This document shows, piece after piece, positions 8,865 to 41,579 of a DNA stretch of 64,000 bases. Position 1 is the first letter of the stretch, and each line of letters opens with the position of its first letter. The stretch is from Thiomicrospira aerophila AL3. Its GTDB lineage: Bacteria; Pseudomonadota; Gammaproteobacteria; Thiomicrospirales; Thiomicrospiraceae. The translations under genes were made by a program, and so were the position numbers. The notes under the pieces are model-generated. The model saw nothing but the letters and a program-made list of their open reading frames with translations. It was not told the DNA's origin and ran no database searches. The stretch lies in the NCBI RefSeq assembly GCF_000227665.2, contig NZ_CP007030.1, positions 868,001 through 932,000 on the forward strand, read 5' to 3'.

Positions 8865-9365
8865 ATGCGCCATTGGTATTTGGTCACCACCAAACCCAAA
8901 CAAGACGACATCGCCGAACAGAACCTCGTCGCCCAAGGCTATGAGGTGTATCGACCTTTGTGTCGAGTGGTAAAAAAGTCGCGCGGTAAACCGGTTGAGC
9001 GCACGGAATCCTTGTTTCCACGCTACTTGTTTATCCAGCTAGACCATATTGCACAAGACTGGAGCCCCATCCGCTCCACTAAAGGCGTGATGCAAATGGT
9101 GCGTTTTGGTGCCTATCCGGCAAAAATAACGGATGACTTGATCGACGCGATAAAACAACAAGAGCAGGCCGCCCTCAAAGGCGCTGCGCCCGCCCAATAC
9201 AAAAAGGGCGACAAATTGCGCGTCGAAAGTGGCGCTTTTTATGGCCTAGACGTCATTTTTGAAAACTACGACAGTGATCAACGCATCATCGTCTTGATGA
9301 ACATTCTCGGCCAGCAGCAAAAAGTGGTCATGCAAGCCGAACAACTTGAGAAAGCCAGCGAATAA
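8865..9365 (+). CDS. rfaH: Transcription antitermination protein RfaH
   Basis: NusG-like specialised elongation factor of 166 residues. The N-terminal NGN domain starts RHWYLVTTKPKQDDIAEQNL and includes LFPRYLFIQLD, both typical of RfaH. The C-terminal KOW-type domain reads KKGDKLRVESGAFYGLDVIF. RfaH loads on RNA polymerase paused at an ops element and suppresses termination in long surface-polysaccharide operons. A perfect ops lies 70 bases downstream of this gene. ATG 8865 is preceded by GGGGAG (8851-8856); a CAGGCCTG palindrome (8857-8864) fills the spacer between ribosome binding site and start. Confidence 0.92.
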   Translation: MRHWYLVTTKPKQDDIAEQNLVAQGYEVYRPLCRVVKKSRGKPVERTESLFPRYLFIQLDHIAQDWSPIRSTKGVMQMVRFGAYPAKITDDLIDAIKQQEQAALKGAAPAQYKKGDKLRVESGAFYGLDVIFENYDSDQRIIVLMNILGQQQKVVMQAEQLEKASE

Positions 9366-11974: not shown

Positions 11975-13081
11975 ATGGCTAACATACTCGTAACAGGCGC
12001 CGCCGGTTTTATCGGTTATCACTTAATCCAAGTCTTATTGAAAAAGGGCGATCAAGTTGTCGGCATCGACAACCTAAACGACTACTACGATCCGCAGCTC
12101 AAACTCGACCGCCTCAAAGCCCTTGGTTTTGACAGCGACCAAGTCAAAACACTCGCGGCAGGCCAACATTTAAAATTAACCATTCAAAATTTACAATTCC
12201 AGCGGCTCGACCTAGCCAACCGCTCAGGCATCGAACAGCTATTTGCCGAAAACCAATTCGACATCGTCGTCAACTTGGGTGCCCAAGCGGGTGTGCGATA
12301 CTCCATCGACAACCCACATGCTTATGTCGACTCCAACCTGGTTGGCTTTGTAAACATCCTAGAAGGCTGTCGTCACGCCAAAGTCAAACACCTCGTTTAC
12401 GCCAGCTCCAGCTCGGTTTACGGCATGAACATCAAACAACCCTTTAGCACCGCAGACCGAGTCGATTACCCCATTAGCCTGTATGCCGCCACCAAAAAGT
12501 CCAACGAACTCATGGCACACACCTACAGCCATCTTTACGGTATCCCAACCACCGGATTACGGTTCTTCACAGTCTATGGCCCAATGGGACGTCCCGATAT
12601 GGCTTACTTCTCCTTCACAAAAAAAATCCTCGCTGGTGAAACCATTGATGTATTCAACAACGGCGAAATGCAACGCGACTTCACCTACATAGACGACATA
12701 GTAGAAGGCATCACTCGTGTAATGGAAAAACCACCTCGTCATCCCGAGCAGGCCAACAGTCATTCTGAGCTTTCCCCATGTCATTCTGAGCGAAGCGAAG
12801 AATCTCCTAAACCCCAAAAAATCACCAACGCCCAAGCTCCCTATAAAGTCTACAACATCGGCAATAACCAACCCGTAACGCTGCGCCGCTTTATCACCGC
12901 TATTGAAACTGCCACAGGCAAAAAAGCCAACGAAAACCTCCTGCCCATGCAGGCAGGTGACGTGCCCATAACCTATGCCGATGTAGACGAACTCATTGCC
13001 GATACAGGCTTTAAGCCAGCAACAAGCATCGAAGACGGCATCAGTCAGTTTGTTGACTGGTACAAAGGCTACTACAAATAA
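11975..13081 (+). CDS. UDP-glucuronate 4-epimerase-like SDR
   Basis: Extended short-chain dehydrogenase. NAD site VTGAAGFIGYHL is at residues 5-16, and SSSSVYG and YAATKKSNEL carry the catalytic Ser and Tyr-x3-Lys. NLNDYYDPQLKLDRL is typical of UDP-glucuronate 4-epimerases (LpsL/WbnF group), giving UDP-galacturonate. It follows ugd by two bases, which fits substrate supply. At 368 residues it is about 30 longer than family members; the excess is an in-frame dispersed repeat at 12737-12807 (SHSELSPCHSERSEESP). The insertion lies between the active-site half and the C-terminal substrate region, where a loop may tolerate it. Confidence 0.85.
   Translation: MANILVTGAAGFIGYHLIQVLLKKGDQVVGIDNLNDYYDPQLKLDRLKALGFDSDQVKTLAAGQHLKLTIQNLQFQRLDLANRSGIEQLFAENQFDIVVNLGAQAGVRYSIDNPHAYVDSNLVGFVNILEGCRHAKVKHLVYASSSSVYGMNIKQPFSTADRVDYPISLYAATKKSNELMAHTYSHLYGIPTTGLRFFTVYGPMGRPDMAYFSFTKKILAGETIDVFNNGEMQRDFTYIDDIVEGITRVMEKPPRHPEQANSHSELSPCHSERSEESPKPQKITNAQAPYKVYNIGNNQPVTLRRFITAIETATGKKANENLLPMQAGDVPITYADVDELIADTGFKPATSIEDGISQFVDWYKGYYK
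12737..12807 (+). repeat. Dispersed repeat inserted in frame in the epimerase gene
   Basis: Contains two tandem versions of GTCATTCTGAGC, the second followed by GAAGCGAAGAATCT, a widely dispersed bacterial repeat normally intergenic. Here it is translated as SHSELSP and CHSERSEESP without breaking the frame. A related copy sits in the aminotransferase fragment at 19345-19375. Confidence 0.8.
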
Positions 13082-15633: not shown

Positions 15634-16469
15634 AAAAGGCGACGAGCTTAACAGTTCAAAACACCGCAATCAATTTAAAGCGTATTAACTCATCTGATTT
15701 CTTAAGTCTTACTGATATTGCGCGAGCAAAAAATCCAGATGAGCCAAAAGATGTCGTAAAGAACTGGCTTAGATCAAGACAGACGATTGATTTTCTTGGA
15801 CTGTGGGAGCAAATAAACAATCCAGATTTTAAAGGGGTCGAATTCGACTCCTTTAAAAGCCAAGCCGGTTCTAATAGTTTTACTTTGTCTCCTACTAAAT
15901 GGATAGAAAACACCCATGCCGTTGGCTTGGTAAGCAAAGCCGGACGCTATGGTGGAACCTTTGCACACCCGGATATAGCATTTGAATTTGCCAGTTGGAT
16001 TTCAGCGGAATTCAAGCTCTTCCTAATTAAAGAATTCCAACGGCTAAAACAAGACGAAATCGACAGCAAAAAACTTGAGTGGAACCTCAGTAGAAGCCTG
16101 AGCAAAATCAACTATCGAATTCACACCGATGCCATACAAGCGTACATTGTGCCAAAGCTCAATCCGTCACAAATCAACTTCACCTATGCTGACGAGGCCG
16201 ATTTGTTGAACCTAGCACTCTTTGGTATCACAGCCAAGCAATGGAGAGAGCAAAACCCCGATAAACAAGGCAACTTGAGAGATTACGCCAGTGTCGAAGA
16301 GTTAGTTATCCTATCCAATATGGAAAGCTATAACGCTGAAATGATCAAGCAAACGCTTCCACCACAACAGCGGCTTGTTCAATTAAATGACATGGCGATC
16401 ACTCAAATGAATAGTTTGACAAAGCACGAACCGAAATTGACAAGTTCAACATTAAAAATTAAGAAGTAA
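15630..16469 (+). CDS. KilA-N domain protein
   Basis: 279 residues. The N-terminal two thirds is a KilA-N DNA-binding domain: [22 protein letters not shown], then [46 protein letters not shown]. Such proteins occur in phages and accessory islands, where they may regulate transcription. The C-terminal half ([20 protein letters not shown]) is seen in stand-alone bacterial versions. It overlaps the rmlB stop by four bases and is followed by rmlA after three, so it was inserted cleanly into the dTDP-sugar operon. Its role is unknown. Confidence 0.85.
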
Positions 16470-16472
16470 ACA

Positions 16473-17348
16473 ATGAAAGGCATCATTTTAGCAGGCGGCT
16501 CCGGCACACGGCTTTACCCAATTACGCGCGGTGTATCTAAACAGCTATTACCCGTTTACGACAAACCGATGATTTATTACCCGCTATCGGTACTCATGCT
16601 GGCCGGGATTCAAGACATCTTGATTATCACCACACCCGAAGACCAAGCCGGGTTTATTCGCATGCTGGGTGATGGCTCAGAGTTTGGCATCAACCTAAGC
16701 TACGCCATACAACCCAGCCCCGACGGACTCGCACAAGCTTTTACCATTGGCGAAGACTTTATTGGCAACGACAGCGTGTGCCTCGTGCTTGGCGACAACA
16801 TCTTCTGGGGACAAGGTTTTACTCCGATTCTAAAGCGTGCCGCAAGCAGGCCTGCTGGAGCAACAGTGTTCGGCTATCAAGTTAAAGACCCGGAACGCTT
16901 TGGCGTGGTCGAATTCGACCAAAACAAAAAAGCCATCAGCCTAGAAGAAAAACCAGCCAAACCCAAATCCAACTTTGCGGTCACCGGCTTATACTTCTAC
17001 GACAATGACGTGGTAGAAATCGCCAAGCAAGTTAAACCCAGTCACCGTGGCGAACTCGAAATCACCACCATCAACCAAATGTACATGGAGCGGGGCGACC
17101 TAAACGTCGAACTGCTAGGCCGTGGTTTTGCCTGGTTAGACACCGGCACTCACGAAAGCCTATTAGAAGCCGCCATGTTTGTCGAAACCATCGAAAAACG
17201 CCAAGGCTACAAAATCGCCTGCCTAGAAGAAATCGCCTGGCGCAATGGTTGGCTCAGCAATGACCAAGTCGCCCAGACCGCCCAAGCCCTCAGTAAAAAC
17301 GGCTATGGGCAATATTTAAAAAGCTTAATTGAAGGTGAGTTTAAATGA
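16473..17348 (+). CDS. rmlA: Glucose-1-phosphate thymidylyltransferase
   Basis: 291 residues, standard length. The start [20 protein letters not shown] holds the nucleotide-binding Gly-rich loop and Arg. [17 protein letters not shown] binds sugar phosphate, and [12 protein letters not shown] carries the metal Asp. It makes dTDP-glucose, the RmlB substrate. Its end overlaps the aminotransferase start by four bases. A GCAGGCCTGC palindrome at 16846-16855 reads SRPAG. Confidence 0.96.
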
Positions 17349-18433
17349 CTCCGGTCACCAAAGCCTATTTACCCAATAAAGACAAATACAAAGCCTATGT
17401 TGATCGTATTTATGAAACTGCATGGCTCACGAATAATGGCAGTCTATTGCAAGAGCTTGAGCGCCGCTTAAAAGAACACTTGGGCGTCAAGCATCTGATT
17501 CTAGTCGCTAATGGTTCGCTCGCCTTACAATTGGCATATAAAGCGCTTGATCTAAAAGGCGAAGTGATAACCACGCCCTTTAGCTTTGCTGCCACCACCA
17601 GCACGCTCGCATGGGAAGGCTTAACGCCAGTGTTTGCCGATATTCACCCCACCTGTTTTAACCTAGACCCGAATAATATCGAACCGCTGATAACCGAGCA
17701 CACCAGCGCCATTGTGCCGGTGCATGTGTTTGGCAATCCGTGCCAAGTCGAAGCGATTCAAGCGATTGCCGACAAGCACAACCTAAGAGTCATTTACGAT
17801 GCCGCCCACGCGTTTGGCACAGACTACACCGACCAACACGGCCACACCCAAAGCGTGCTCAACTATGGCAACATCAGTACCATCAGCTTTCACGCCACCA
17901 AACTCTTTCACACCATTGAAGGTGGATCGGTTATTACTAATGATGACGAACTCGCCCGAAAAATTCGCCTGTTGATTAACTTTGGCATCACCGGCCCAAC
18001 CACCATCGAATCGGTTGGCACCAACGCCAAAATGAACGAATTTGAAGCCGCGATGGGCTTATGCGTACTCGATGAAATCGACACCATCAAAACCGAACGC
18101 CAACGCATTTGGCAAAACTACCAAGCAGAATTAGCAGGTCAGGTGCAATTCCAACAATGGAACCCACAAAGCCAAAACAACCACGCCTATGCGCCGGTCT
18201 TATTTAAAAGCGAAGCGCAACTGCTCAAAGTCGAAGCCAAGCTCAAAGAAAACAATGTTCTTGCAAGACGCTACTTCTACCCAAGTTTAGATACACTGGA
18301 TTATTTACAAAACAACCAGTCCTGCTTAATTTCAAGAGACATCGCCAGCCGCATCCTCTGCCTGCCTATCTACCCAGGCCTGGCACAAGCTCAACAAAAC
18401 ACGATTTGTGGCATAATACGCCAACAATCTTAA
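17345..18433 (+). CDS. DegT/DnrJ/EryC1 aminotransferase, VioA-like
   Basis: PLP-dependent sugar aminotransferase of 362 residues. [20 protein letters not shown] and [16 protein letters not shown] resemble VioA (dTDP-4-amino-4,6-dideoxyglucose synthase) more than FdtB. YDAAHAFG carries the cofactor Asp, and [15 protein letters not shown] the Schiff-base Lys (about residue 188). It acts on the RmlB product and would give dTDP-Qui4N; the NeuD-like enzyme at 23275 could acetylate it. The 3' third recurs as two extra fragments at 19160 and 23163. Sugar specificity is inferred from residual similarity and context. Confidence 0.85.
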
Positions 18434-18458
18434 AACGAAAAACCGCAAGGATTGACCC

Positions 18459-18647
18459 ATGGAAAAAGCAAAATTCAGTTTTATAAAAGGCTTCGCCCAC
18501 ATTGAAGTTTGGCCAACGGGAAGCTACCAACAATATTTACCAAAGGGTAGTGTGACGGCACGGTTAAACGGCCATTGGTTGCAAGTCGGCAAGTACCTAA
18601 GCACCTCTGTAGCGCAATACGAGCGACAAAGGGCCAATCAAAAATGA
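18459..18647 (+). CDS. Small hypothetical protein (62 aa)
   Basis: Unrecognised. MEKAKFSFIKGFAHIEVWPTG is amphipathic and no membrane segment is visible. It has an AAGGA ribosome binding site (18446-18450), and its stop overlaps the ATG of the DUF2335 frame (18644), so the two probably form a pair. Coding is plausible from this arrangement only. Confidence 0.5.
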   Translation: MEKAKFSFIKGFAHIEVWPTGSYQQYLPKGSVTARLNGHWLQVGKYLSTSVAQYERQRANQK

Positions 18648-19141
18648 GCGCCAATCACCGGTTAGAAGCGGACAATCCAGCACAGGAAAGTCAATTAGTC
18701 ACTTTAGTGGACGCACTGGAGCAGGGTGGTTTATCACAGCCGCAACAAATATAACTTGCTCAGCTACTCAAAAATGCACCCGCATCCGTTGTGATGACAG
18801 CCACGCATCATCAAAGCTTTTCAGGCCCGATTCCACCGTCGGAGCAGCTTGCTAAATACCCGGAAGATGCACGCAAACTTATATTAGATATGGCGCAAAA
18901 AGAGCAAGACCATGCTCACAACATTAACAAAACAGCACTAACCGGCGCCATTCAAAAAGATCGATTGGGTCAATATATTGGTGGAACGATTGCAATAGTC
19001 GGTTTGGTTGTAGCTGCATGGATTGCGCAATACATTGCTGTGGCCGCTGGCATTATTGCCACACTGGACTTGTTTGGCATGGTGGCGCTGTTTGTCGCCC
19101 CAAGAATATTAGAAAACCGAAACAATAGCGAACAGCACTAA
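18644..19141 (+). pseudogene. DUF2335 membrane protein with in-frame TAA
   Basis: The frame from ATG 18644 opens with MSANHRLEADNPAQESQLVT, meets TAA at 18752-18754, then continues to SFSGPIPPSEQLAKYPEDARKL, a DUF2335 hallmark. Two adjacent hydrophobic segments follow (IGGTIAIVGLVVAAWIAQY and AGIIATLDLFGMVALFV). Translation could restart at GTG 18791, giving a 116-residue protein with the conserved domain intact. DUF2335 proteins are small predicted membrane proteins of unknown function, frequent on mobile DNA. The segment 18911-19167 recurs without gaps at 22914-23170. Confidence 0.72.
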
Positions 19142-19461
19142 TGAACGCAATGCAACAACCAGGCCTGGTGCAATTCCAACAATGGAACCCCCAAAGCCAA
19201 AATAACCACGCCTATGTACCGGTATTATTCAAAAGCGAAGCTCAACTGCTGAAAGTCGAAGCTAAGTTAAAAGAAAACAACATTATTCCAAGACGCTACT
19301 TTTACCCAAGTTTAGATACACTTGAATACTTAAATAAACCAGTCATTCTGAGCGAACGCGAAGAATCTCCAGCCAATCACCAGGTCTGCTCAATTTCAAG
19401 AGACATCGCCAGCCGGATATTATGCTTGCCGATTTATCCAAAGCTTAGAGATGAAGATTAA
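19141..19461 (+). pseudogene. Aminotransferase 3' fragment B, joined at a palindrome
   Basis: After MNAMQQ the frame enters, exactly at CCAGGCCTGG (19159-19168), the last third of the VioA-like aminotransferase: [20 protein letters not shown] to [15 protein letters not shown]. It matches 18144-18370 closely but has its own end (KLRDED) and an inserted dispersed repeat (LSEREESP). It lacks the PLP domain, so it is not an enzyme. Confidence 0.88.
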
Positions 19462-19493
19462 GAAAAAGTTATAAACATCATAAAAGGATTTAA

Positions 19494-20183
19494 ATGAAAA
19501 CTTGTGCAGTGATGCAGCCTTATTTATTTCCATATATCGGCTATTACCAATTGGTTTACGCATCTGATGTATTTGTTATTTACGATGATGTGACTTTTAT
19601 AAAGCAAAGTTATATCAATAGAAACTCTATTTTAGTAAATGAAAAAGCACAACGATTCACGCTTCCTGTTCCTGGCTCTTCATCTAATACAGTTATTCAA
19701 GAATTAAGCTATGTAGGTGATAGAAAAATCTTAAAAACTATTCAACAGGCATATCGTAAAGCGCCTTTTTATAATGATGTTATTGAGTTGATAGTATCTG
19801 TTTTTGAAAGTGAAGAGCGAAATGTTGCAAAGTTAAATGAAAAAAGCTTACAGTTGGTATTTGAGTATTTGGGCTTAGATAAGAAATTTGTCTTTGCCAG
19901 CGAGTTAGATTATGAGCGAGAAGCAGATAGAGCGGATAGGTTGATAAATTTATCAAAGATGTTTAATTGCGATCATTATATAAATAGTCCTGGCGGTAAA
20001 GAGTTGTATGACAAAAAGTATTTTGGAGAACAAGGTGTTCAGTTAAATTTTATTGAGAGCCAAATAACGCCGTATCAACAGTTTTCAAGTGAATTTGTGC
20101 CTTATTTATCTATGATAGATATTTTAATGAATTGCAGTAAAGAGCAGATTATTCGAATGTTTTCTAATTTCAGATTAACTTGA
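19494..20183 (+). CDS. WbqC-family protein
   Basis: 229 residues, starting KTCAVMQPYLFPYIGYYQLVYASDVFVIYDDV, the defining WbqC N-terminus, with FIKQSYINRNSI and the CDHYINSPGGKELYD stretch also conserved. WbqC-like proteins occur in O-antigen clusters that make amino sugars with unusual acyl groups; the biochemical role is not established to my knowledge. The DNA is AT-rich relative to rmlA and the aminotransferase, suggesting a separate origin. RBS AAGGA (19483-19487) precedes ATG 19494. Confidence 0.82.
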   Translation: MKTCAVMQPYLFPYIGYYQLVYASDVFVIYDDVTFIKQSYINRNSILVNEKAQRFTLPVPGSSSNTVIQELSYVGDRKILKTIQQAYRKAPFYNDVIELIVSVFESEERNVAKLNEKSLQLVFEYLGLDKKFVFASELDYEREADRADRLINLSKMFNCDHYINSPGGKELYDKKYFGEQGVQLNFIESQITPYQQFSSEFVPYLSMIDILMNCSKEQIIRMFSNFRLT

Positions 20184-21700: not shown

Positions 21701-21822
21701 TCCCCCCATCTAATAAACGGGGTCAAAAGTAGAATTTTCTCGTAAACTAAAGTGCGGGATATCTTGCATGCAACTAAGTAACGCGTAGCGGTCAAACATC
21801 AAAATTTACAGACAGCCAAATC

Positions 21823-22056
21823 ATGGCCATCTTAAAACAAAATGAAGCGGGCATTAAGGTTCCAGACCTGTGCCGCGAACACAGCATTAGCAGCGCTACA
21901 TTTTATAAATGGCGCGCAAAATATGGTGGCATGGACACTGCGATGATCAAGCGCTTAAAAGAGCTTGAAGACGAAAACCGACGGCTGAAAAAGATGTATG
22001 CCGAAGAGTGCCTAAAATCCCAGATTCGTCAGGAAGCACTCGAGGGAAAGTGGTAA
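21823..22056 (+). CDS. IS3 transposase OrfA
   Basis: Helix-turn-helix protein (VPDLCREHSISSATFYKWRAKYGGMD) followed by a leucine-rich coiled coil. The family start KFTDSQI lies in frame upstream of ATG 21823, but the expected ATG is absent (GGT CAA ACA there), so the usual N-terminus is not translated from a normal start. Confidence 0.82.
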   Translation: MAILKQNEAGIKVPDLCREHSISSATFYKWRAKYGGMDTAMIKRLKELEDENRRLKKMYAEECLKSQIRQEALEGKW

Positions 22057-22874
22057 AGCCATCTTTACGCAAAGAGATGGCGCAGAATGTCGTTGCACAG
22101 ATGGGCGTAAGCATACGGTTCGCATGTGAAGTGTTTGGCATTAGCCAATCGTGTTACCGCCATCAAGCCAAGTTAGCCAATGAAAATGCCGTCATTGCTG
22201 ACTGGTTATTGTGCTTGACCACCGCACATAAAGGCTGGGGATTTGGCTTATGCTTTGATCATTTGCGCAATGTGAAAAAGTTTGAGTGGAACCACAAACG
22301 CGTCTATCGGATTTACCGAGAGTTAGAGCTTAACTTGAGGATTAAACCTAAGCGTCGAATTAAACGTGATAAGCCCGATGCACTGAGCGTTCCAACGGCT
22401 ATCAATCAGGTCTGGTCAATGGATTTTATGTCCGACTCATTGCAAGATGGTCGCAGTATCCGAACATTTAACGTTATTGATGACTACAACCGTGAAGCCT
22501 TATGCATTGATGTGGACTTCTCAATGCCAAGCCAACGAGTGATTCGTTCACTCGAGCAGGTGGTTGAATGGCGCGGTAAACCGGCGGCAATACGCTATTA
22601 CGACGGCCCTGTATATGTAAGCCAAGTGTTAATTAACTGGGCGAATAAAAACCAAATTACCCTGATGTATATCCAGCCGGGCAAGCCAACACAAAACGCA
22701 TACGTTGAGCGATTTAACCGAACAGTGCGCCATAAATGGCTAGCGCTACACCTGTTTGAGACGATTGAACAAGCGCAATATCTGGCGACAGATTGGCTTT
22801 GGACATACAATAACGAACGACCAAACTCCGCCATTGGTCGTGTACCGCCAAGGTATTTACTGGACGCGGCTTAA
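22008..22874 (+). CDS. IS3 transposase OrfB, probably defective
   Basis: rve-type integrase core with WSMDFMSDSLQDGRSIRTFN (first Asp) and NAYVERFNRTVR (Glu). The second catalytic motif, normally DNGPE, reads YDGPV (near 22600): the Asp position is Tyr and the Glu is Val. By family knowledge this should abolish strand transfer. It overlaps orfA by 49 bases. Confidence 0.82.
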   Translation: MPKIPDSSGSTRGKVVKPSLRKEMAQNVVAQMGVSIRFACEVFGISQSCYRHQAKLANENAVIADWLLCLTTAHKGWGFGLCFDHLRNVKKFEWNHKRVYRIYRELELNLRIKPKRRIKRDKPDALSVPTAINQVWSMDFMSDSLQDGRSIRTFNVIDDYNREALCIDVDFSMPSQRVIRSLEQVVEWRGKPAAIRYYDGPVYVSQVLINWANKNQITLMYIQPGKPTQNAYVERFNRTVRHKWLALHLFETIEQAQYLATDWLWTYNNERPNSAIGRVPPRYLLDAA

Positions 22875-22913: not shown

Positions 22914-23144
22914 CATGCTCACAACAGTAACAAAACAGCACTAACCGGCGCAATTCAAAAAGATCGATTGGGTCAATATATTGGTGGAACGATTGCAATA
23001 GTCGGTTTGGTTGCAGCTGCTTGGATTGCGCAATACAGTGCTGTGGCCGCTGGCATTATTGCCACACTGGATTTGTTTGGCATGGTGGCGCTGTTTGTCG
23101 CACCAAGAATATTAGAAAACCGAAACAATAGCGAACAGCACTAA
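22914..23144 (+). pseudogene. Truncated second copy of DUF2335
   Basis: Starts abruptly at the IS right end and matches 18911-19141 base for base in length, with about eight substitutions. It encodes the two hydrophobic segments and the C-terminus NRNNSEQH but has no start. The copy shows that the DUF2335/aminotransferase-tail segment was duplicated and that the IS removed its left part. Confidence 0.9.
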
Positions 23145-23273
23145 TGACCGCAATGCAACAACCAGGCCTGCTTAATTTCAAGAGACATCGCCAGTCGGAT
23201 TTTATGCTTGCCGATTTATCCAGGGCTTGAAGAGTTCGAGTTGTATCAAATTATTTTTATTTTAAGGAATTAA
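23145..23273 (+). pseudogene. Aminotransferase 3' fragment C, joined at a palindrome
   Basis: After the same ATGACCGCAATGCAACAA leader as fragment B, CCAGGCCTGC (23162-23171) leads straight into [20 protein letters not shown] and a distinct C-terminus ending IIFILRN. The join to the aminotransferase is about 200 bases later than in fragment B, although the upstream DNA is the same. Confidence 0.88.
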
Positions 23274-32258: not shown

Positions 32259-33776
32259 ATGATTAACCAATACACCCACAACCAACCAGGCCTTTATGCC
32301 CCTTCGGGTAGGGTGCTTGAATCCGATTTAGCGGGCGAGCTTCCGTTGTATCTTTATTGGCCGCAAGATCAATCGACCTTGTTGTATTCCACCTCGATTA
32401 CCGAGTTATTAAACGATGCGCGGGTGCCTAAGCCGTTAAAGGTCAGCACGGAAGGCTTGTCGTTTTTATTGCAAAGCGGGGTGGTGCCACCGCCGAAAAC
32501 CGCTTATCAGGATATTTACATTCTCGGCATTGGTGATAAGGCCAAGGTGTCCACGCTCAATGGTAAAATCGACATTCAGTTTAGCCACGAATTTCCGTTT
32601 TTAAACGCCAACCGTTTGCAAGCGGATGAAATGCAGCCGGATGAAGACTTGATTTTACAAATGCTCGCGGAAGCGACCATCAGCCGCATTGACGAATCCA
32701 AACCCAGTTTTCTATTCCATAGCGCAGGCAAAGACAGCAACAGCATCGCGCTGGCGTTAGCCGAAGCCGGTTGGCAGGATAAGGTCACCTTGATCACCCA
32801 TAAATCGAAGGGCAAGGCGGATGAAAGTGAAATCAGCGCCAAAATCGCCAAACAACTGGGTTTTAAACATCAGATATTGCACGAAGTCGATCAACTGCAA
32901 GCCGAACACAAACAGGCGATCAACGACTATTTTGTCAATGCGCCTTTCCCTTGCACCGACAATGTCACCTTGGCCTATCCTCTCTATGCCCACCAACTGC
33001 CCGAACTCAAAGGCGCGAATATTATTGATGGCATGGGGAATGATGTATTTATAGGTCACATTCCAAGTCGCACTGAATTTAAGCGACAGCAAATTTCAAA
33101 ATATTTAAAATACAGCCGATTATTATCAAAGCATTTCCCATCAGAAAGTTTGTTTCATGTTGCAGGGCGCACACGCGCAGAATGGACAGGTTTATCTGGG
33201 TTATCTTTTGCCGATGTTAAGAAAATTTTGCCGGATGCTTTTGATGTTTCTGATTTTTGGTTAGAAAAGGACTCCAATCAGGATTATCTGGACTTTAGAC
33301 CCTCTATTCGCGGAACAATTATTGACCAAGAAATTTTTACGCGAAAAGCCCGAAACTTTGCCGACTCAATCAATGCAAACATGGTTTTACCTTTCGCCAA
33401 TCAACAAGTCGCCGAATACTTCGCCAAAATGCCCGAACAACACCTATTCGACCGCAAAGCCCTAAAAAACAAACTCATCCTCCGCAAAATCCTCAAAGAC
33501 CGCATCGGACTTGATTCCGATGCACTGGGTAAGCTGGGCTTTAGCTACGATTCACGTTCAATCGTCCTACAAAACTGGGATTGGATGCACCAAGAAATGC
33601 AACAATGTCCGCTATGGGAGCAAGCAGGCCTGCTTAAAGTGATTACCCGTCTAAAAGGGGTGATGCAAAGCCAGCATAAATATGCGGATTTATCTGGTCG
33701 TTTGATTTACCGAATATATATGTTTTCCGCTTGGCGTAACCAAAGTAGATATCTTAAACAAAATAAACAGGCTTGA
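32259..33776 (+). CDS. Asparagine-synthase-like amidotransferase
   Basis: 505 residues. The PP-loop FLFHSAGKDSNSIALAL (about residue 150) binds ATP as in the AsnB synthetase domain, and the C-terminal region is conserved with AsnB. The N-terminus lacks the Cys2 glutaminase start, so it may use free ammonia or another donor. In O-antigen loci such proteins amidate uronic acids, which fits Ugd and the epimerase. A GCAGGCCTGC palindrome (33624-33633) marks the start of the 3' part that is duplicated at 34954. Confidence 0.82.
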   Translation: MINQYTHNQPGLYAPSGRVLESDLAGELPLYLYWPQDQSTLLYSTSITELLNDARVPKPLKVSTEGLSFLLQSGVVPPPKTAYQDIYILGIGDKAKVSTLNGKIDIQFSHEFPFLNANRLQADEMQPDEDLILQMLAEATISRIDESKPSFLFHSAGKDSNSIALALAEAGWQDKVTLITHKSKGKADESEISAKIAKQLGFKHQILHEVDQLQAEHKQAINDYFVNAPFPCTDNVTLAYPLYAHQLPELKGANIIDGMGNDVFIGHIPSRTEFKRQQISKYLKYSRLLSKHFPSESLFHVAGRTRAEWTGLSGLSFADVKKILPDAFDVSDFWLEKDSNQDYLDFRPSIRGTIIDQEIFTRKARNFADSINANMVLPFANQQVAEYFAKMPEQHLFDRKALKNKLILRKILKDRIGLDSDALGKLGFSYDSRSIVLQNWDWMHQEMQQCPLWEQAGLLKVITRLKGVMQSQHKYADLSGRLIYRIYMFSAWRNQSRYLKQNKQA

Positions 33777-33786
33777 TTGAAACTAA

Positions 33787-34899
33787 ATGAAGACTACAGA
33801 AACTAAAAAAATAACCCTTTTAATCAGTTCACTTGCTGGCGGTGGGGCTGAAGGCGTTTGTGTGAATGTGGCGAATGGCTTGGCTGAACAAGGTTGGCAG
33901 GTTGATTTGGTGGTGTTACATTTAAATAATTCAGCTTATCATGATAGGGTATCTGATAAGGTGAACTTGGTGGTATTGGGCGTGAAGCATGCTCGTTATG
34001 CTGGATTAACCTTGTCAAAATATATCCATCGTCAAAAACCTAAAAGTATTTTGGTATTCAATTATGAATTAGCCGTTATGTTAGTGATATTACGAACCAT
34101 ATTACGTTTTAAAATAAAAATAATTGCACGAAATATTAATACACTTTCTCAAAAGAGAAAGCTGGCTAAAGGTTTATGGCTAAAGTACATAGTCAAAAAT
34201 TTTGTTGACGGATTTTATGGAAAAGTTGACCATGTTATTAATCAATGCAAAGCCATGCAGGACGATTTGCTTACTCTTTACCCTAAATTAAAAGGTAAAA
34301 CATCAGTTATTTATAACCCCGTTGCCAAACACATCGAAGATTATGCCAAGTCGCATGATTTGAGCCAGGTAGAAAAGCGAGATTATTTATTGTGCGTCGG
34401 GCGTTTAGAAAAACAAAAAGCGTTTCATTATGCGATAGAAGGCTTTGCAGGCGTGGCAAATGAGTTTCCTAATCTGCGCCTTAAAATTGTCGGGCAGGGG
34501 AGTGTGGAGGCAACGTTAAAACAATGCGCCATAGATTTTGGTGTCGCAGACCGTGTAGATTTCGAGGGCTTTCAAAAAGACATGATTCCTTACTACCTGC
34601 ACGCAAAAGCGACAGTTTTAACTTCACTTTACGAAGGCTTTCCCAATGTGCTCGTTGAATCCATAACGCTCGGCACACCGGTTGTTGCCTTTGACTGCCC
34701 AAGCGGCCCAAGGGAGATCATTGAAGATAGAGTGAATGGGTATTTGGTGGAGTATCTGAATATTAAGGACTTTAAAGCAAAGTTAGTTCAGCTTCTTTCT
34801 GCAAAATTTAATGCAGAGGCTGCCCAAAATACAGTAAAACAAAATCAAGTTGATGAGGTAGTGAAGCATTATGCTAAGCAAATTGCCTGCTTTGATTAG
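33787..34899 (+). CDS. GT4-family glycosyltransferase
   Basis: 370 residues. The N-terminal acceptor domain starts ITLLISSLAGGGAEGVCVNV. The donor domain has CVGRLEKQKAFHYAIEGF and TSLYEGFPNVLVESITLGTP with the ExxxxxxxE motif. GPREIIEDRVNGYLVE ends the site. It is homologous in layout to the broken gene at 4846. Probably extends the repeat unit; donor unknown. Confidence 0.88.
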   Translation: MKTTETKKITLLISSLAGGGAEGVCVNVANGLAEQGWQVDLVVLHLNNSAYHDRVSDKVNLVVLGVKHARYAGLTLSKYIHRQKPKSILVFNYELAVMLVILRTILRFKIKIIARNINTLSQKRKLAKGLWLKYIVKNFVDGFYGKVDHVINQCKAMQDDLLTLYPKLKGKTSVIYNPVAKHIEDYAKSHDLSQVEKRDYLLCVGRLEKQKAFHYAIEGFAGVANEFPNLRLKIVGQGSVEATLKQCAIDFGVADRVDFEGFQKDMIPYYLHAKATVLTSLYEGFPNVLVESITLGTPVVAFDCPSGPREIIEDRVNGYLVEYLNIKDFKAKLVQLLSAKFNAEAAQNTVKQNQVDEVVKHYAKQIACFD

Positions 34900-35173
34900 C
34901 TTTTTGTTGCCATGCACGTAGAGGTTGGACACCCTCCGCCTCTGACCTTATAACCAGGCCTGGTGAAAGTGATTACACGAATGAAAAACCGAATGAACGG
35001 CACCGGCTGGTGCGCTGGTACGGCAGGACGATTGCTGTATCGCATCTATTTGCTTTCCGCCTGGCATAACAAGAATCAATATTTTTAACCACCAGGCCTG
35101 GTTGATATGATGTATGTTGTTAAGATGAGTTGTGTCCTGGCCTTTAAACTTCTAATTTAATAAATTTCAAAGT
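34900..35173. other. Intergenic region holding a palindrome-flanked gene tail
   Basis: Contains the AsnB-tail fragment 34954-35088, flanked by CCAGGCCTGG at 34954-34963 and 35092-35101. The remaining DNA shows no gene. Confidence 0.8.
34954..35088 (+). pseudogene. 3' tail of an asparagine-synthase-like gene between two palindromes
   Basis: Starts at CCAGGCCTGG and reads VKVITRMKNRMNGTG, then GRLLYRIYLLSAWHNKNQYF and TAA (35086-35088). This matches LKVITRLKGVMQSQH to the C-terminus of the gene at 32259, which has a palindrome at the same codon. A second CCAGGCCTGG begins four bases after the stop. Divergence from the intact copy shows that it came from a different allele. Confidence 0.88.
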
Positions 35174-36481
35174 ATGAATGACAAAAATTTAAAACACTAT
35201 CGAGTATTTTCAGCCTTTTTTTTATTTGCTCTTTTTTTCCCAGTCTTTCATAACTATTTTGGCTCATCAGGTGCGATGCTTGTTAATGGCGGATTGATAT
35301 TAGGTTTGGTTTTTTATTTCCTAGCTTTTAAGAGGCTATATTTTAATTTTTATGACGAAAATCATAAAGAAATATTTATCGCTGTATCGTTGATTTTTAT
35401 ATTTTTTATTCTGCACATAGCTCTCTCTATGTTGGTTGGTGCATCCTTTGGTGGGATAGATATTATTCAACGTGATCTTTATGAGTTTCATCGTCCTATT
35501 CTGTATTTGCTCGTGTTTGCTCTTGCTTACACTGTCTTTTCTCGTCAAGGCCTGATTTTAAAGTTTGAACGACTTTTGTTGTTTGCGTTTTTTGTTTTGG
35601 TTTTAATTGGGTTAAATCAGTACTTTGGTTTTTATGATTATCTAAGTCAGCTATATACTAAAGAGCATAATGTTAACTCCCGCCGGGTTTCTGCGCCTTT
35701 TGTCAACCCTTATGATTATGCGTTCATGATGTCGTTTTTTATTTTATATTTTTTCCTGAAAATGATTTACACATGTCGATTTTTTATTCTACCTTTGGTT
35801 GTTGCGTTAATCATGTTTATTCTTCCGCAATCACGATCAGTTGCCGGAACTTTTTTGGTAGGTTTTTTTATTGTCTTACCAACGGTTTTATTGTTATTAG
35901 AGTTTAATCTTAAGAAGCTAGTTGTATCGAAGAAATTATTTTTATTTTTATTTTTAATGCTTGTCGTGTCCATCATTTTCGTTGCCTCTATTCCGTATTT
36001 ACTGGAAAACTTTCACTATCTGACGGGTCAGTTTGTAAGGTTGCTGGAGGGTGAGGGTATTGGTCGATCTGGTAATATTCGGCTAGGGCAGTTTCTATTT
36101 GCTCTCGATAAAGTATCTAATAATCCGTTAATCATGTTCTTTGGTAATGGCCCTGCAAAATCTGAGCTTGAATACGTTGAGTCGATTTATAATTATCAGT
36201 TTTACCGTTATGGGTTGGTTGGTTTTCTTTTGTATTTTATTGCCTTAATTGGGCTTGGGGTCTATTTTGCATGGCGGATATTAAAGAATATTGGTCGTCA
36301 TCATATTAGTTATCCTTTTTTTCTCGCCCTGCTCGTATGGTTTTTGATTATTCCTTTGATGAGTGTGGGCAATAACTTTACCGAGCAAATTCGGCTTTCT
36401 TTCTTCTTTTATTCTATGTTGGGTCTTTTGGCCGCCAGTTATTCATTGACTGTTTTCCATTCAAAAAGGCCTGCGGAATGA
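35174..36481 (+). CDS. wzy: O-antigen polymerase-like membrane protein
   Basis: 435 residues with about 11 membrane helices and a periplasmic loop around residues 265-330 (NFHYLTGQFVRLLEGEGIGRSGNIRLGQF). FILPQSRSVAGTF is the Wzy/WaaL Arg region. Given the WaaL-like protein in the core block, this is the better Wzy candidate, joining repeat units in the periplasm. Its AT-rich DNA and weak sequence conservation fit Wzy. The stop overlaps the next gene by four bases. Confidence 0.78.
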   Translation: MNDKNLKHYRVFSAFFLFALFFPVFHNYFGSSGAMLVNGGLILGLVFYFLAFKRLYFNFYDENHKEIFIAVSLIFIFFILHIALSMLVGASFGGIDIIQRDLYEFHRPILYLLVFALAYTVFSRQGLILKFERLLLFAFFVLVLIGLNQYFGFYDYLSQLYTKEHNVNSRRVSAPFVNPYDYAFMMSFFILYFFLKMIYTCRFFILPLVVALIMFILPQSRSVAGTFLVGFFIVLPTVLLLLEFNLKKLVVSKKLFLFLFLMLVVSIIFVASIPYLLENFHYLTGQFVRLLEGEGIGRSGNIRLGQFLFALDKVSNNPLIMFFGNGPAKSELEYVESIYNYQFYRYGLVGFLLYFIALIGLGVYFAWRILKNIGRHHISYPFFLALLVWFLIIPLMSVGNNFTEQIRLSFFFYSMLGLLAASYSLTVFHSKRPAE

Positions 36482-37695: not shown

Positions 37696-38471
37696 GTATT
37701 GTTTCAATAATTACTCCCTCCCATAATTCCACACAGTTTATTTCAGAAACCATTCAGTCTGTTTTGAGTCAGTCTATTTCAGACTGGGAGATGATTATTG
37801 TTGATGATTGCTCGACGGACAAATCGGTTGAGGTGATTCAGTCTTTTGTTGAGCAAGATTCGCGGATTAAGTTGATTCGGTTGTCGGTAAATTCAGGTGC
37901 AGCAGTAGCTCGTAATACAGCGATTGAAGCCGCACAGGGTCGTTATATTGCGTTTTTGGATAGTGATGATCTTTGGTTGCCGGATAAGTTGGAAAAACAG
38001 TTGGCGTTTATGCAGGTTGATAATTATCCGTTTACCTATGCGGCTTATGACAAGATTGATGAAAATGGGCAGGTGTTTGGGCTTATTGGTGTGCCGGATA
38101 GGGTTTGCTATTCTGATTTGTTAAAGATGTGTTCGATTGGTTGTTTAACCGCAATCTATGACACGGAATATTTTGGCAAGGTTACTATGCCGTTGATTCG
38201 TAAACGTCAGGATTTCGGCTTGTGGTTGAAGTTGTTGAAAAAAACGGAGTATGCCTACGGCTTGAATGAAACACTCGCGCAGTATCGTGTTCGCACCGAT
38301 TCAATTTCCGCCAATAAAGCCAATGCCGCTAAGTTTACTTGGCGTTTGTATCGTGAAGTCGAAGGGATGAATGTGTTTAAAGCCAGTTATTATTTTAGCC
38401 ATTATGCGGTGCGTGGTTTATTGCGCACCAAAGCACCAGGCCTAGCGAGAATGTTAGGGGTGTTGAAATGA
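37692..38471 (+). CDS. GT2-family glycosyltransferase
   Basis: 259 residues, short WcaA/WbbD-type GT-A enzyme: [36 protein letters not shown] and [19 protein letters not shown] (DxD). It starts with GTG overlapping the previous stop, and its end overlaps galE, so it belongs to the wzy-GT4-GT2-galE operon. Confidence 0.87.
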
Positions 38472-39547
38472 TTTTAGTCACAGGCGGAGCTGGTTATATC
38501 GGGTCGCATACATGTGTTGAGTTGTTAGCGGCTGGGTATGATTTGGTGGTGTTGGATAACCTTAGCAACAGTTCTATCGCTTCGCTTGAACGTGTTGCTG
38601 GAATTGTGAATGTTGAATGTTCAATTTTTAATGAAGACTCCCGCCTTCGCGGGAATGACGAACGATTAACTTTTATCCAAGGCGATATACGCGACAGTGA
38701 GTTGTTGCGGTCGGTTTTTGAGCGGTTTGAGATTGAGGCGGTGATTCATTTTGCCGGGTTAAAGGCGGTGGGTGAATCGGTTGCGATGCCATTGCGCTAT
38801 TACAATAACAATGTATCGGGTTCGGTAGCGTTGTTTGGGGTGATGGCGGAGTTTGACTGCAAGCGAGTAGTGTTTAGTTCGTCGGCGACAGTGTATGGCG
38901 ATCCGGCGAGTGTGCCGATTAAAGAGGGTTTTCCGTTATCGACCACCAATCCTTATGGCGCGTCTAAGTTGATGGTAGAGAATATCTTGCGTGATGTGTA
39001 TGCCAGTGACAATACCGCTACGGGTACAAGGGCCTGGTCGATTGGGTTGTTGCGTTATTTTAATCCCGTCGGGGCGCATGAGTCGGGGTTGATTGGTGAA
39101 GATCCGAATGGGATTCCGAATAATCTGATGCCGTTTGTGTCGCAGGTGGCGGTAGGTTTGCGCGAGAAGTTGTCGGTGTTTGGTGGCGATTACGATACCG
39201 TCGATGGCACTGGGGTGCGGGACTATATTCATGTAGTGGATTTGGCGAAAGGGCATGTGGCGGCGTTGCGGAAGTTAATGCAATCATCTGGCCTGCTAAC
39301 GGTGAATTTAGGCACAGGGCGCGGGTATTCGGTTTTGGAGATGGTGTCTGCATTTGAAAGGGTATCGGGCAAAGCTGTGCCTTATGAGATTGTTGCACGC
39401 AGGCCTGGTGATGTGGCGCAGTGTTATGCCGACCCGAGCTATGCGTTTGAAGTGTTAGGCTGGAAAGCGGAGTTTGGTATTGAAAGAATGTGCGAAGACG
39501 CATGGCGCTGGCAGTCGAAGAATCCACGGGGTTATGGTGAGGGGTGA
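38468..39547 (+). CDS. galE: UDP-glucose 4-epimerase
   Basis: 359 residues. [17 protein letters not shown] (NAD), [20 protein letters not shown] (Tyr-x3-Lys) and the GalE region [19 protein letters not shown]. It is about 20 residues longer than usual because a dispersed repeat is inserted in frame near residue 56 ([12 protein letters not shown]), between the first strands. It interconverts UDP-Glc/Gal or their N-acetyl forms. A palindrome at 39400 reads RRPGD. The last 15 codons recur at 40657 and, with more of the gene, at 41384. Confidence 0.92.
38636..38662 (+). repeat. Dispersed repeat inserted in frame in galE
   Basis: GACTCCCGCCTTCGCGGGAA with TGACGAA is a common intergenic inverted repeat (CCCGC-CTTC-GCGGG). 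Here it is translated as DSRLRGNDE and keeps the frame. Confidence 0.82.
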
Positions 39548-40622: not shown

Positions 40623-40645
40623 GCCGGATTGAGTCCGGCGTTTTT
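40623..40645 (+). terminator. Terminator after module 1
   Basis: Stem GCCGGA / TCCGGC with loop TTGAG, followed by GTTTTTG. The same hairpin ends modules 2 and 3 (41352, 42225) and precedes rmlB copy 2 (44622). Confidence 0.85.
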
Positions 40646-40656
40646 GTTTTTGGATT

Positions 40657-40705
40657 TGGCGCTGGCAGTCGAAGAATCCGCGAAGTTATGGTGAGGGGTG
40701 AAGTG
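40657..40705 (+). pseudogene. galE 3' tail, duplicate 1
   Basis: TGGCGCTGGCAGTCGAAGAA continuing to GGTGAGGGGTGA reproduces the last about 15 codons of galE ([14 protein letters not shown]). It directly precedes antitoxin module 2, as the real galE end precedes module 1. Confidence 0.88.
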
Positions 40706-41380: not shown

Positions 41381-41383
41381 GGA

Positions 41384-41579
41384 TTTCCGTTATCAACCAC
41401 CAATCCCTATGGTGTGTCTAAGCTGATGGTGGTAAACATTTTGTGCGATGTGTTTGCTAGTGACCCGGCTTGGTCGATTGGCTTGTTGCGCTGGAAAGCG
41501 GAATTGGGCATCGAGCGGATGTGTGAAGATGCTTGGCGCTGGCAATCGAAGAACCCGAATGGGTATGGTGAGGGGTGAG
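41384..41579 (+). pseudogene. galE fragment with internal deletion, duplicate 2
   Basis: Reads [16 protein letters not shown], then jumps at [19 protein letters not shown] to the galE end (NGYGEG, stop). It lost about 125 codons between the active-site region and the C-terminus and differs at many bases from galE, so it is an older or foreign allele. It precedes module 3. Confidence 0.88.

Follow-up and report, generated by a model that had tools for sequence, protein, structure and literature searches.

In Neisseria and the Pasteurellaceae, DNA uptake sequences are words of roughly 10 bp that a genome carries in hundreds of copies. Highly iterated palindromes are an old and mainly cyanobacterial puzzle, and in the cyanobacteria they are tied to methyltransferases. 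One of them, HIP1 (GCGATCGC), has been tied to recombination and excision as well (Elhai 2015, PMC4390886). Homology-facilitated illegitimate recombination is a one-sided homologous integration which occurs in competent bacteria during natural transformation (PMC3240628). Here, a locus from Thiomicrospira aerophila AL3 is compared with these systems; the window is the whole stretch of 64,000 nucleotides that was analysed (contig NZ_CP007030.1, positions 868,001 to 932,000), and positions below are counted from its first letter.

The locus lies among polysaccharide genes coding for a flippase, glycosyltransferases, a polymerase-like protein and an epimerase. It contains an intact asnB-like gene and, downstream of a glycosyltransferase gene, the detached 3' tail of a second asnB allele, which is discussed below together with a related gene on another contig (L017). 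The features are as follows.

32259..33776, + strand: intact asnB-like gene (PF00733); its 5' part is of the L017 type, and its 3' end differs after about 33650
33624..33633, no strand: palindrome GCAGGCCTGC in the intact gene, at codons homologous to those of the tail's CCAGGCCTGG
33634..34953, + strand: putative inserted segment, made up of an alternative asnB 3' end, a glycosyltransferase gene and 54 bp of intergenic DNA
33787-34899: glycosyltransferase gene inside the putative inserted segment
34954..34963, no strand: palindrome CCAGGCCTGG at the tail junction, an exact match
34954..35088, + strand: asnB-like tail, a pseudogene remnant of 135 bp (44 codons plus the stop TAA at 35086-35088)
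35092..35101, no strand: second CCAGGCCTGG, an intergenic repeat copy at which nothing marks a boundary
35174..36481, + strand: gene for a polymerase-like membrane protein downstream of the tail, assigned by eye from the sequence, with no Pfam match

An earlier note on this DNA had described a divergent asnB tail of this length starting at a palindrome, and this is confirmed. It had also placed a second palindrome four bases after the stop of the tail, which is present but separated from it by three bases, and had seen a palindrome at the same codon of the intact gene, which is there as well but in the form GCAGGCCTGC and not CCAGGCCTGG. Homology between the tail and asnB ends abruptly two bases to the left of the palindrome, with only 19/60 upstream bases identical against a random mean of 15.1. 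A tblastn match running through a TAA had raised the possibility of asnB homology in 34900-34953 and was rejected, as 7% of random genome stretches reach an equal score. Further along the window, 40633-40698 and 41381-41575 are tails of the galE-type epimerase gene at 38468-39547, and their edges are without a palindrome.

The palindrome at the tail is one form of a repeat that is found throughout the genome. Its core is CAGGCCTG, of which CCAGGCCTGG and GCAGGCCTGC, the other common 10-bp form, are variants with particular flanks: in 464 kb the core is followed outwards first by G or C and then mainly by A (left side) or T (right side). In the same sample CAGGCCTG occurs 245 times, about once per 1.9 kb, while the runner-up among palindromic octamers reaches 54 and the one-base variants of CAGGCCTG are scarce, with 2-16 copies each. 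The 10-mer CCAGGCCTGG is present 316 times in the T. aerophila AL3 genome and 263-815 times per genome across all nine genomes of the genus, while other genera of the family have hundreds of copies in some cases and almost none in others. The window itself holds 16 palindrome copies where 0.03 are expected. Of the copies in a 500-kb sample, 236 are coding and 31 intergenic, against an intergenic expectation of 32.9, and within genes one reading frame is avoided. A palindromic octamer that is hugely above chance genome-wide, and about as frequent in genic and intergenic DNA as expected, has the properties by which HIP-like repeats are recognised; CAGGCCTG with its 10-bp forms is a highly iterated palindrome that is spread across the genome and lies mostly within genes. 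None of the papers listed in a literature search describes CCAGGCCTGG or CAGGCCTG as a repeat of bacteria.

A meaningful spacing of palindrome pairs was considered and rejected, since the observed spacing is matched by chance: gaps of less than 200 bp between core motifs number 25/224 against about 22 expected from density, and pairs within 138 bp are predicted about 0.5 times per window and about 6.3 times per genome. A link to a Dcm-type methyltransferase (CCAGGCCTGG has two CCWGG sites) was likewise rejected, PF00145 being absent from the genus genomes searched. On the contig L055, near-identical paralogous genes stand in tandem at 16300-19800, with CAGGCCTG just before the start of two of them.

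The origin of the tail is best seen from L017, in which CCAGGCCTGG stands in frame within a contiguous long asnB, where it encodes Pro-Gly-Leu-(Val), and in which the end of asnB resembles the tail. L017 starts inside asnB, so that the comparison covers no 5' half of its gene; within the part covered, the intact asnB of the window matches L017 at 131/150 bases (87%) on the 5' side of the palindrome. On the 3' side it is the detached tail that matches (113/132, 86%), differing in 7 codons non-synonymously and in 9 synonymously; the end that the intact gene now has falls to 79/132 (60%). Because the intact 5' part and the tail both match L017 and the intact 3' end diverges, the tail can be regarded as the lineage's original 3' end; it looks like the displaced native 3' end of an L017-type asnB lineage, severed at the palindrome. 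The earlier note would have given up its reading of a palindrome-bounded cassette if relatives showed the tail contiguous with a full-length gene and lacked the palindromes: the tail is indeed contiguous with a longer asnB in L017, but the palindrome is not absent there. The L017 contig is filed under a Methyloprofundus MAG (G397), in whose 4.8 Mb CCAGGCCTGG occurs 167 times, and it may therefore be mis-binned from a motif-rich organism.

Directly 3' of asnB, a polymerase-like gene (by-eye reading) is found in both L014 and L017, as it is after the tail of the window. In Vibrio injensis (L016) asnB is followed by a glycosyltransferase gene, as in the window, and the two glycosyltransferases are identical at 249/363 amino acids (69%); the intact asnB 3' end and L016 have the motif HKYADxSG in common, although over the alternative asnB 3' end as a whole the match with L016 is modest, at 69/108 bases. 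In Nitrincola tapanii (L013), asnB has mostly 81-97% DNA identity to the window gene over the first 1250 bases and is unrelated beyond, a pattern which likely reflects horizontal exchange with a switch of the 3' end. An N-terminal asnB remnant in another genome (G007, L012 near 1546) has CCAGGCCTGG in place of the window gene's CCAGGCCTTT.

The earlier note had advised looking for other gene tails edged by the motif, and two more in the window start at a palindrome (19159 and 23162). Both derive from an aminotransferase gene, and the layout of the asnB locus is repeated there in the order aminotransferase gene, cargo gene, palindrome and aminotransferase tail.

17345..18433, + strand: intact DegT/DnrJ/EryC1 aminotransferase gene, with near-palindromes at both codons that correspond to the starts of tails 1 and 2
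18791..19158, + strand: DUF2335 gene (18791-19141) and the bases up to tail 1
19159..19461, + strand: aminotransferase tail 1, starting exactly at CCAGGCCTGG; WbqC is next
23162..23245, + strand: aminotransferase tail 2, with CCAGGCCTGC precisely at its start, which lies at a later codon than that of tail 1

Over its first 185 bp, tail 1 is 87% identical to the intact gene. Five other genomes keep WbqC directly after an intact aminotransferase gene; by this synteny, tail 1 is the native end of the gene, displaced but still next to WbqC, its native neighbour. Before tail 2, the 3' part of the DUF2335 gene is duplicated (about 22916-23161; 257 bp, 97% identical), and the similarity stops at the palindrome; in the relative L208, the palindrome of tail 2 sits inside an intact aminotransferase gene. 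Between the DUF2335 copies, at 21740-22874, lies what is left of an insertion sequence, including a transposase of the integrase-core (rve) type.

Junctions of this kind were also sought beyond the window. In a survey of 2.73 Mb from five genus genomes (duplicates of at least 80% identity, expectation taken from the interior density of CAGGCCTG), duplicated segments ended at a CAGGCCTG common to both copies in 6 cases where 1.4 were expected, while the remaining 255 palindromic octamers combined gave 8 such ends where 15 were expected. The six cases represent about four independent junctions, the stretches added last yielded one further case, and the palindrome junctions were spotted before the statistics were drawn up, so that a genome-wide enrichment of junctions at CAGGCCTG is suggestive only. 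In G006, the flank to the left of one palindrome matches a copy at 9181 and the flank to its right matches a copy at 12014, both copies belonging to the same fragment of a HAD-type phosphatase gene (HAD assigned by eye). Scattered copies and fragments of a HAD-type phosphatase gene, alike to one side of a palindrome but different to the other, were also noticed in L057/L058 (G007:C1 98028, 104719 and 107150) and in L108 (G006). Counter-examples are the galE tails of the window and, in G007, the N-terminal asnB remnant, at whose edges there is no palindrome.

Taken together, the asnB locus is probably, although by no means certainly, the product of an entry of foreign DNA in which copies of the palindrome served as short shared homology, a role that HIP1 reportedly has in cyanobacteria, and the old asnB end was pushed aside. 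The incoming DNA would have brought the glycosyltransferase gene and a copy of asnB whose 3' end was not that of the resident gene. Its left join would have formed by ordinary homology somewhere within asnB and its right join at the palindrome in common, where the resident asnB end would have been severed and left behind. What the sequences show is a junction exact to the palindrome, a matching ancestry of the 5' part and the tail, and a recurrence of this layout, with outgroup synteny, at the aminotransferase gene; the entry route, an arrival in one step and the enzymes that made the joins are inferred. Entry would probably have been by transformation, for which the ComEC competence protein, encoded in 9/9 genus genomes, is the one indication.

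The main rival to an insertion starts from two asnB genes that once stood in tandem. An intergenic palindrome downstream of the glycosyltransferase gene would have recombined with the one in the second copy, so that the body of this copy was deleted and its tail remained. Such a deletion predicts an identical junction sequence, and HIP1-linked excision is on record for cyanobacteria (PMC4390886), but an additional duplication step is required, two asnB copies are found in no genus relative, and in the parallel aminotransferase case the outgroups have a single gene beside WbqC; this history is thus considered rather unlikely. It is less likely again that an ordinary deletion eroded the gene and that a common palindrome sat by chance where the tail begins. 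A core present about once per 1.9 kb and window tails that end without any palindrome speak for such a coincidence, but three gene tails in 64 kb start within two bases of a palindrome, for each of which density predicts roughly 1%. The cassette proposed in the earlier note, a mobile unit between two palindromes moved by a dedicated recombinase, has in its favour that the tail has a palindrome on either side. Chance predicts pairs of copies at a distance of 138 bp, so this reading is unsupported. The motif recurs about every 2 kb, hundreds of times in all, mostly in genes and at random spacing, its left copy is part of the asnB coding sequence in L017, and nothing identifies the right copy as a border. 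A cassette should also appear as one unit at several sites with identical borders, but the nine genus genomes contain no second similar copy of the tail, their matches being confined to the palindrome and its immediate flanks, which makes a cassette highly improbable.

A speculative and rather doubtful further reading would be that CAGGCCTG provides genus-wide standard joints, with intragenic sites, short, identical and numbering in the hundreds, for the splicing of imported polysaccharide modules and the swapping of gene ends, independent of a Dcm-type methyltransferase. Junctions at the palindrome offer a simple view of how sugar-coat gene clusters reshuffle. A second palindrome of this kind from bacteria unrelated to the first, with no Dcm-type or D12 enzyme in the genomes that were searched and found again and again at recombination junctions of recognisable parentage, would help to part a role in recombination from a role in methylation.

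Of the known features, the cyanobacterial HIP1 is the closest to the CAGGCCTG repeat. Both are short palindromes that are massively over-represented genome-wide, but they occur in unrelated bacteria and differ in sequence, CAGGCCTG with its G/C and then A/T flanks standing in place of GCGATCGC. A possible further difference from HIP1, which goes with an orphan DNA methyltransferase recognising its inner bases, lies in the three methyltransferase families searched: the genus genomes searched contain neither PF00145 nor the D12 family (PF02086), and the N4/N6 family (PF01555) is only sporadic in them. DNA uptake sequences resemble the repeat in comprising hundreds of copies of a word of about 10 bp, in a genus that is possibly competent; unlike them, the CAGGCCTG-type motif is perfectly palindromic and without a fixed orientation. 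The junction sequences at asnB fit homology-facilitated illegitimate recombination, as they also fit a deletion between palindromes. As in homology-facilitated illegitimate recombination, there would be homology on one side and little or none on the other, and foreign DNA would abut resident sequence; the difference is that a palindrome repeated across the genome lies at the second junction and gives about 13 shared bases.
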